From: Methylobacterium sp. NMS14P
GTDB taxonomy: Bacteria > Pseudomonadota > Alphaproteobacteria > Rhizobiales > Beijerinckiaceae
Direction of reading: 5' to 3'
Length of the DNA: 64,000 bases
Assembly (NCBI RefSeq): GCF_028583545.1
Contig: NZ_CP087106.1
Location: 4,026,501-4,090,500, forward strand
Shown here: piece after piece, positions 6,213 through 7,526 of the stretch
Layout: each line of letters begins with the position of its first letter
Numbering within the stretch: position 1 is the stretch's first letter
Made by a program: the position numbers and the translations under genes
Notes under the pieces: generated by a model
What the model was told of the DNA's origin: nothing
The model's database searches: none
What the model saw: the letters and a program-made list of their open reading frames with translations, nothing else

Positions 6213-6310
6213 TCCGTCGGGATCTGTCTCGGAGGCGGCGAGGACGCGGGAGAATCGGGAACGATCGGCGCGAAGACGGGTTGGACCCCGAACGCACGAA
6301 GGAGAGTCCC

Positions 6311-6556
6311 ATGAAGACCCTGCTTGCCGGCGCCGTCCTGGCTGCCTCCCTGACGAGCGTCGTCCCCGCCGCGGCGCAGCGAATCGATATCGGTCCCGAC
6401 GGGCCGAGCGTGGACCTGCGCTCCCGCGCCCAGCAGGAGCGCGACTTCCGCCGCGAAGAGTATCGGGGCGACCGCGCCTATGACGAGGACCGCCTCTACC
6501 GTCGGCAGAGATTCGACGACGACCGCCCCGCGGTGCGCCGCGGCTACGGATACTGA
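6311..6556 (+). CDS. Small secreted basic/acidic protein, unknown
   Basis: An 81-residue protein with a clear signal peptide (MKTLLAGAVLAASLTSVVPAA, cleavage after AAA near residue 23). The mature part of about 58 residues is strongly charged: repeated Arg, Asp, Glu and Tyr, as in REEYRGDRAYDEDRLYRRQR. I recognise no family. AAGGAG sits just upstream of the ATG at 6311, and a strong hairpin terminator follows the stop, so it is a self-contained transcription unit or the last gene after the binding protein. It lies directly before lanmodulin; whether the two are functionally linked is unknown. Confidence 0.7.
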   Translation: MKTLLAGAVLAASLTSVVPAAAQRIDIGPDGPSVDLRSRAQQERDFRREEYRGDRAYDEDRLYRRQRFDDDRPAVRRGYGY

Positions 6557-6599
6557 ATCGCCGCGCGGATCGCCGTACGGCGACTGTGCGCCCTCTTCG

Positions 6600-6626
6600 G
6601 GGGCCGGCTCGCGCCGGCCCCTTTTT
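6600..6626 (+). terminator. Intrinsic terminator after small secreted gene
   Basis: GGGGCCGGC-TCGC-GCCGGCCCC forms a perfect 9-base stem with a 4-base loop, followed directly by TTTTT. It ends transcription before lanmodulin. Confidence 0.85.
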
Positions 6627-6751
6627 CTATGCCGATCCGCCGACGATGGCGCCGAGACATGCGATCCGCCCACAGGGTCGAATTTCGCACTTGCAGCACG
6701 GCGAGTCGGCGACTAGGAAGATCGAGCATCAAATTTCGGGAGCATCTGGCA

Positions 6752-7165
6752 ATGACCCTTCGTTTCATCAGTGGCTTCGCGGCGGTGACCCTCGCGGTGT
6801 GCGGCCTCTCTGCTCCGGCCGCGTTCGCCAAGCCGGTGAGCGGGGCGAGCGCCGTCAAGATGATCGACACCGACAACGACGGCACCGTCGACCTGAAGGA
6901 AGTGGAGGCGGTGGCCTCGGCGACCTTCGACCGTCTCGAGAAGGATTCGGACGGCACCCTCGACGCCCGCGAGCTGAAGGGCCGCCTGAGCCCGGCCGGC
7001 GTGAAGCAGGCCGATCCGGACAGCGACGGCACCCTCGACAAGAAGGAGTACCTCGCGGCCGTCGGCGAGCGCTTCAAGCTGGCCGATCCGGACAACGACG
7101 GCACGCTCGACGCCAAGGAGCTGAACACCAAGGCCGGCAAGGCTCTCCTCGCCCTCATCAAGTAA
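6752..7165 (+). CDS. lanM: Lanmodulin family lanthanide-binding EF-hand protein
   Basis: Periplasmic EF-hand protein of 137 residues. A signal peptide (residues 1-26, ending AAFA) precedes four EF-hand loops: DTDNDGTVDLKE (39-50), EKDSDGTLDARE (63-74), DPDSDGTLDKKE (88-99) and DPDNDGTLDAKE (112-123). The linkers are 12, 13 and 12 residues, the short spacing known from Methylobacterium lanmodulin and about half that of calmodulin; Asp is kept at loop position 9 in all four. The family's position-2 proline is present only in loops 3 and 4; loop 2 begins with Glu. Lanmodulin binds rare-earth ions with very high selectivity; here metal preference is inferred only. ATG 6752 follows GGGAG; upstream in-frame starts would hide the signal peptide. 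No lanthanide uptake genes are adjacent. Confidence 0.88.
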   Translation: MTLRFISGFAAVTLAVCGLSAPAAFAKPVSGASAVKMIDTDNDGTVDLKEVEAVASATFDRLEKDSDGTLDARELKGRLSPAGVKQADPDSDGTLDKKEYLAAVGERFKLADPDNDGTLDAKELNTKAGKALLALIK

Positions 7166-7174
7166 AACCGACCG

Positions 7175-7233
7175 GACGCTCCTGATGGAGCGTCGATGAG
7201 CAGGGCCCCCGCGGAGCTGACCGCGGGGGCCTT
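7175..7233 (+). terminator. Two hairpins after lanM
   Basis: GACGCTCC-TGAT-GGAGCGTC (7175-7194) is followed by GGCCCCCGCGG-AGCTGA-CCGCGGGGGCC (7204-7231) and TT. The second is an 11-base perfect stem. The T-tract is short, but the tandem hairpins directly after the stop codon make termination likely. Confidence 0.7.
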
Positions 7234-7526
7234 GCTGCGTTCGACCCGACGCTTCACCTTCGTCGGGCCGCGCCGTTCCATCGACTTTGCACGCCAAAGT
7301 TGTGGATCGGCGCGATTGTTCCTGAGCGCCGACTGCCGCGTCGGCCGCGACCGGGCGCCGGCGACAGCGCCCCCGTGTACCCTCGGGCGGCGCCGGCGGG
7401 TCGCCCGGCACCGGGTCTTACCCCTTCGAGAGCTGCGACGCTCGACCGCTCACCGGGCGCGCCCGGGGGGAGTTGACGGTTCGCAACCTGTAGGTGCACC
7501 CTCAAGCTGGTTGAGGGACCAACATA
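7234..7526 (+). other. Intergenic region before a small unknown gene
   Basis: About 290 bases with no gene I can support. Reading frames on both strands lack ribosome sites and have the arginine-rich composition of non-coding high-GC DNA. It presumably holds the promoter of the gene at 7527. Confidence 0.3.

Follow-up and report, generated by a model that had tools for sequence, protein, structure and literature searches.

Here we describe lanM of Methylobacterium sp. NMS14P, which lies at positions 6752 to 7165 of a 64,000-nucleotide stretch of contig NZ_CP087106.1 (positions 4,026,501 to 4,090,500, forward strand; the whole stretch is hereafter called the window). Its product, LanM, is a genuine lanmodulin whose first two EF-hand loops are atypical relative to the lanmodulin of Methylorubrum extorquens AM1 (Mex-LanM) and ordinary within the genus. 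We consider it very probable that this protein is a periplasmic, lanthanide-binding LanM of the common genus type, one of two paralogues in the genome, and that it acts as a lanthanide buffer or shuttle.

Identity of the window protein

The gene and the parts of its product are as follows (loops were read from the translation; Thr2 denotes Thr at loop position 2, and so on).

6752..7165, + strand: lanM, 137 codons plus stop, a member of clade W (translation, family model, trees and predicted fold)
6752..6829, + strand: putative Sec-type signal peptide, residues 1-26 (by eye: Arg4, a hydrophobic stretch, and AFA before Lys27)
6866..6901, + strand: EF1 loop DTDNDGTVDLKE, residues 39-50, with Thr2
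6938..6973, + strand: EF2 loop EKDSDGTLDARE, residues 63-74, with Glu1 and Lys2
7013..7048, + strand: EF3 loop DPDSDGTLDKKE, residues 88-99, with Pro2
7085..7120, + strand: EF4 loop DPDNDGTLDAKE, residues 112-123, with Asp1 and Pro2

Translation of 6752-7165 confirms what the first-pass annotation had read from this gene, that is, four EF-hands separated by linkers of 12, 13 and 12 residues, Asp9 in all four loops (4/4), Thr2 in EF1, Glu1-Lys2 in EF2 and Pro2 in EF3 and EF4 only; the Sec signal peptide that it had named is also visible by eye, and the protein is probably exported. Its assignment to the lanmodulins is backed by sequence, family model and predicted fold. The NCBIfam LanM equivalog NF053806.1 matches the protein with E 6.6e-56 and 188 bits (cut-off 135), the EF-hand_1 model matches four stretches of it, and Mex-LanM in the PDB (8fns/6mi5) matches it with E ~4e-36. 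The three-helix bundle fold of LanM is recovered in the predicted structure, in which AlphaFold gives a block-mean pLDDT (predicted local distance difference test) of 43-47 across residues 1-30. The hallmarks listed for lanmodulins in PMC10232371 (four EF-hands, fewer than 200 residues, separation by 12-13 residues and at least one Pro2 loop) are all found here: four loops in 137 residues, linkers of 12/13/12 and Pro2 in EF3 and EF4. Among its relatives, the proteins of Methylobacterium sp. UNC378MF and M. fujisawaense are 97% and 93% identical to it.

Mex-LanM (6mi5, 8fns) has the fold, the linkers and the Asp9 residues of the window protein, with 62% identity over the mature domain, but carries Pro2 in 4/4 loops and Asn1 rather than Asp1 in EF4, and is encoded in the lut cluster; with Pro2 in 2/4 loops and its gene outside that cluster, the window LanM lacks these marks of the extorquens-type subgroup. 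The lanmodulin of Hansschlegelia quercus (Hans-LanM, 8dq2) shares the fold, has Lys2 in EF1 and Pro2 in 1/4 loops, and differs in its sequence (40% identity), in Asn1 and Glu9 of EF1-EF3 and in forming a metal-sensitive dimer, as described in PMC10232371. Closer in loop pattern is the LanM of M. aquaticum 22A, for which Fujitani and others report Thr2 and Lys2 in the first two motifs (PMC9260416) and for which Pro2 is given in 2/4 loops (PMC12603986). It resembles the window LanM in Thr2 of the first loop, Lys2 of the second, a signal peptide and a gene described as unlinked to the lut genes (PMC9260416), and differs in length (134 against 137 residues) and in the reported neighbours of its gene (purine biosynthesis, hemolysin, adenylate cyclase and MucR).

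Loop types across the genus and beyond

A search of 111 genus genomes gave 160 LanM matches (hand sum) in 110 of the 111, and loop counts cover 150 of these 160. Although the first-pass annotation took loops 1 and 2 to be atypical, their changes are the norm in the genus, an outcome that the annotation itself had listed as one that would refute its reading: EF1 has Thr2 in 112/150 proteins (Pro in 37/150) and EF2 has Glu1 in 112/150, with Pro2 in EF3 of 133/150 and EF4 of 149/150. The accompanying statement that the family usually has Pro2 holds in the extorquens part of the tree, where 32 of 40 rows carry it in all four loops, and fails in the rest of the genus (0/110), so that the all-proline form accounts for 32/150 overall. 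Loop spacing of 24/25/24 (that is, linkers of 12/13/12) is found in 139/150; in the remaining 11, one loop escaped the pattern and the spacing is not in conflict.

The window protein belongs to clade W, a branch of 43 proteins with a Shimodaira-Hasegawa-like approximate likelihood-ratio test (SH-aLRT) value of 98, which is recovered with support of 100/98 when the columns of loop positions 1-2 are removed. The changes in loops 1 and 2 are fixed in this clade, as the first-pass annotation had suggested checking: EF2 begins with Glu-Lys in 43/43 and keeps Asp9 in 43/43, EF1 begins with Asp-Thr in 42/43 and with Asp-Ile in the remaining one, and both EF3 and EF4 begin with Asp-Pro in 43/43. Nine of the 43 (L036, L037 and L039-L045) have Ala or Ser in place of Gly6 of EF1, which may weaken the first loop in those proteins; the window copy keeps Gly6. 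The trees were built on 99 or 107 columns, with many inner forks unresolved, and the division into R, A, S and a remainder was made by hand from one of them, with eight rows in a mixed group; W, R and A each lie on a single branch, whereas group S is split (2 changes). Over the tree of 150 proteins, the minimum number of changes is 1 for Pro2 of EF1, 3 for Pro2 of EF2, 5 for position 1 of EF2 and 6 for Pro2 of EF3.

The same loop types recur in a database sample of 120 proteins (the window protein and 119 of the 120 listed nearest of 2782, a sample biased to the clade of the window protein; P0071, being too short, was excluded), in which EF1 starts with Asp-Thr in 102 and EF2 with Glu1 in 79. 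Outside the genus, EF2 Glu1 seems less frequent, though the sample is small: it is found in 1/12 LanMs above the family cut-off, from the sole genome of the same family. We do not propose it as a trait confined to genus or family, given that EF2 Glu-Lys is likewise present in L226 and L227, from two environmental assemblies whose names go no further than order or phylum, and that many database proteins lack a named source. One LanM-like protein (L137, G090 C133:72544-72933), whose loops start with Asp-Thr, Glu-Lys, Asp-Gly and Asp-Thr, has zero Pro2 loops and thus falls outside the hallmark, and three LanM-like proteins from Burkholderiales-type environmental assemblies (L230, L231 and L232) have Pro2 in 4/4 loops with linkers of 14/12/15 by eye, the first loop of L232 having Ser at position 9.

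Associations between loop positions were examined in 280 sequences, a set that excludes the lower-scoring database proteins and reduces to 262 distinct rows (141 from the genus, 109 from the database and 12 from outside). Glu1 and Pro2 never coincide in EF2 (0/176), whereas 58/86 of the other EF2 loops have Pro2; on 7 independent tree pairs, 3-5 go the expected way and none the opposite (sign test p 0.06-0.25), so that exclusion of Pro2 by Glu1 is suggestive only, the independent pairs being too few to establish it. We also considered compensation between EF2 and EF4, since EF2 Glu1 and EF4 Asp1 are associated in raw counts (166/176 against 66/86, Fisher p 6e-5). This link is gone on 7 independent pairs (mean 1.4 versus 0.6, the rest equal; median p 1), and we therefore put the association down to shared ancestry.

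A second lanmodulin gene with a different upstream element

The genome (6.88 Mb in three contigs) encodes a second LanM (L002, G000 C1:4866225-4866620, - strand) that is 62% identical to the window LanM. The two share Thr2 in EF1, Glu-Lys in EF2 and the linkers, and differ in that the loops of L002 start with Asp-Thr, Glu-Lys, Asp-Thr and Asp-Pro (that is, Pro2 in EF4 only), and in their neighbours and upstream elements. The second copy belongs to clade R, a separate branch of 19 rows (support 100/98) that, among the fetched proteins, is seen solely alongside a clade W copy, in 19/43 of the genomes with clade W. More broadly, the LanM matches number two or three in 45/111 genomes of the genus (hand count). 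In the open-access literature searched, as far as its text was available (PMC8561711 and PMC12482762 included), we found no Methylobacterium genome reported to have two LanMs, and the presence of two LanM clades per genome, differing in Pro2 count and upstream element, appears to be new on that basis; PMC8561711 places lanM with the genes of the lut cluster and reports nearly all of these as conserved in these genera, a statement that has no bearing on copy number.

Both lanM genes are unlinked to each other (C1:4033252 for the window copy and C1:4866225 for L002) and lie outside the lut cluster. At C1:3061901-3066222 are genes for a homologue of the lut permease (84% identity) and for a LutH-like receptor (40%); another such receptor, likewise at 40%, is encoded at C1:4827316-4829922. 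These two TonB receptors (L276 and L277) are each 40% identical to LutH of M. rhodesianum; one adjoins a lut-type ATP-binding cassette transporter without lanM and the other a gene for a PaoC-type aldehyde oxidoreductase. Four pyrroloquinoline quinone alcohol dehydrogenases score above their family cut-off, and two residues past what we presume to be the catalytic Asp, three have Asp and one has Ala, which we take to be the signs of the lanthanide type and the calcium type, respectively.

Upstream of the window gene lies an element that is specific to its clade.

6690..6717, + strand: conserved promoter-like element CTTG-N20-TAGG, upstream of lanM (sequence conservation)

With constant spacing, CTTG-N20-TA[CG]G stands upstream of 43/43 clade W copies, as against 0/19 in clade R, 1/18 in clade A, 0/22 in group S and 2/48 of the others; among mononucleotide shuffles, with spacers of 16-24 allowed, 61/4300 match. 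Clade R has a different element, GGGAAC, found upstream of 16/19 copies (W 0/43, A 0/18, S 0/22, others 3/48), and mostly followed by TT at a distance of about 17 bases; in a narrower upstream stretch it occurs in 15/19 against 87/3800 shuffles. This hexamer resembles what we take to be the promoter of a general-stress sigma factor, a resemblance on which we base no claim, and a generic sigma-70 promoter scan of 6500-7320 found nothing. The sequence surrounding these elements is largely variable among copies within a clade, and the clade-wide conservation is partly a matter of shared descent, as the copies are related. Given their different upstream elements, the two paralogues are likely to be under separate control.

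An alternative is that the paralogues are redundant, with the window copy doing the work and the clade R copy drifting. Clade R indeed has fewer Pro2 loops (one in 14/19 and two in 5/19) and is present in only part of the clade W genomes; but all of its members (19/19) keep four loops with Asp9, most keep the GGGAAC element that is absent from clade W, and the clade forms one well-supported branch. We regard such drift as conceivable, and doubt it.

Expected metal binding and function

We suggest that the four EF-hand loops of the window LanM would bind lanthanide ions, upon which the disordered protein would become a compact three-helix bundle, and that the protein may thereby serve as a periplasmic buffer or shuttle for lanthanides in a Methylobacterium equipped with alcohol dehydrogenases of the lanthanide type. 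By analogy, loops of the common type (EF1 Thr2, EF2 Glu1, Pro2 in EF3 and EF4, and EF4 Asp1) can be expected to bind about four lanthanide ions, and may discriminate less sharply against Ca2+ than the all-proline Mex-LanM does. Three published observations lead to this expectation: the 22A LanM, which is La-induced and compacts with La, bound 3.65 La per molecule (PMC9260416); replacement of Asn108 by Asp in EF4 of Mex-LanM, a site at which the window LanM natively has Asp, is reported to raise the Gd stoichiometry from ~2.2 to 3.8 (PMC11561317); and Pro2-to-Ala replacement in Mex-LanM is cited as lowering lanthanide/Ca selectivity with lanthanide affinity kept (PMC12603986). The first-pass annotation had supposed that metal selectivity or stoichiometry might differ from those of the well-studied protein. 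Fewer bound ions are unlikely because the 22A protein, with Thr2 and Lys2, bound 3.65 La, and the part of the suggestion that stands is a possible effect on selectivity over Ca2+, for which the Pro2-to-Ala replacements offer a precedent.

Several points weigh against this picture of a four-site lanthanide buffer. The 3.65 La were measured at 1.7 mM LaCl3 (PMC9260416), which does not imply tight binding by EF2, and from the published description of the 22A LanM, rather than from its sequence, we infer that the protein belongs to clade A and not to W. According to PMC12603986, no feature of Ca-binding EF-hands is as a rule conserved more strongly than Asp1, and Glu1 could for that reason weaken EF2. 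Furthermore, deletion of lanM in 22A is reported to cause aggregation and periplasmic La deposits with methanol growth unimpaired (PMC9260416), which leaves the in vivo role unsettled.

One alternative is that Glu1-Lys2 abolishes tight binding by EF2, leaving two or three ions tightly bound and a selectivity unlike that of Mex-LanM. The change from Asp1 to Glu1 affects a loop that in Mex-LanM is considered one of the tighter sites (PMC10232371), the absence of Pro2 from all Glu1 loops makes positions 1 and 2 seem to change together, and the loss of EF1 Gly6 in nine clade W proteins other than that of the window indicates that loop decay may occur in the clade. Yet invariant Glu-Lys and Asp9 in EF2 throughout clade W argue for function and not for decay, and the La bound by the 22A protein was bound with Lys2 in place; we consider a disabled EF2 unlikely. 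Tentative, and improbable in our estimation, is a fuller division of labour, in which the W and R copies would differ in promoter type and in lanthanide/Ca discrimination, one buffering at low lanthanide supply and the other responding at high lanthanide or stress, with EF2 Glu1 as a distinct recurrent design that excludes Pro2; the clade-specific upstream elements slightly raise its odds. A calcium-responsive EF-hand protein with no more than a resemblance to LanM is a highly improbable reading, for although Pro2 is missing from two of the loops and calmodulin-type loops are described as often having Lys or Thr at position 2 (PMC12603986), the protein's short linkers (against spacers of ~25 residues given for Ca-responsive EF-hand proteins in PMC10232371), Pro2 in EF3 and EF4, equivalog score and predicted LanM fold all speak for a lanmodulin.

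Genomic neighbourhood

Further features flank the gene.

6305..6556, + strand: 83-residue protein with a signal-peptide-like start and without a Pfam match (a homologue adjoins lanM in 35/43 clade W loci)
6599..6622, + strand: terminator-like stem between the gene for the 83-residue protein and lanM (scan: 1 found where shuffles average 0.6; weak alone)
6738..6742, + strand: GGGAG, ribosome-binding-site-like, 9 bases before the ATG (by eye)
7204..7231, + strand: 11-bp stem 3' of lanM without a T tail, a possible terminator (by eye; absent from the terminator scan output)

We considered the 83-residue protein as an obligate partner of clade W lanM and rejected this, as its family is wider than the clade, with matches in 65/111 genomes that include some without clade W (several copies in some), and a terminator-like stem separates the two genes; one of the homologues that adjoin clade W lanM, in G027, is read with two TGA codons. 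Other neighbours encode a family 5 solute-binding protein, a beta-lactamase-fold protein, an alpha/beta hydrolase, DUF2061 and DUF1810 proteins and a penicillin-binding protein, and no lanthanide link is evident among these window neighbours. Across 33 named clade W-type loci, which were chosen by identity and some of which end at contig ends, the solute-binding protein was found in 22, the penicillin-binding protein in 23 and the 83-residue protein in 27.

Implications

The loop pattern of the window LanM has already been described for its relative 22A, and the paralogue pair is worth testing. These observations correct a picture of the genus based on M. extorquens, given that the all-proline LanM is the minority form. 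The natural series of Pro2 loops, from four down to none, is usable to test the effect of proline on lanthanide/Ca selectivity, and genomes with two LanMs of different loops and upstream elements offer a route to test the unsettled role of LanM in vivo.
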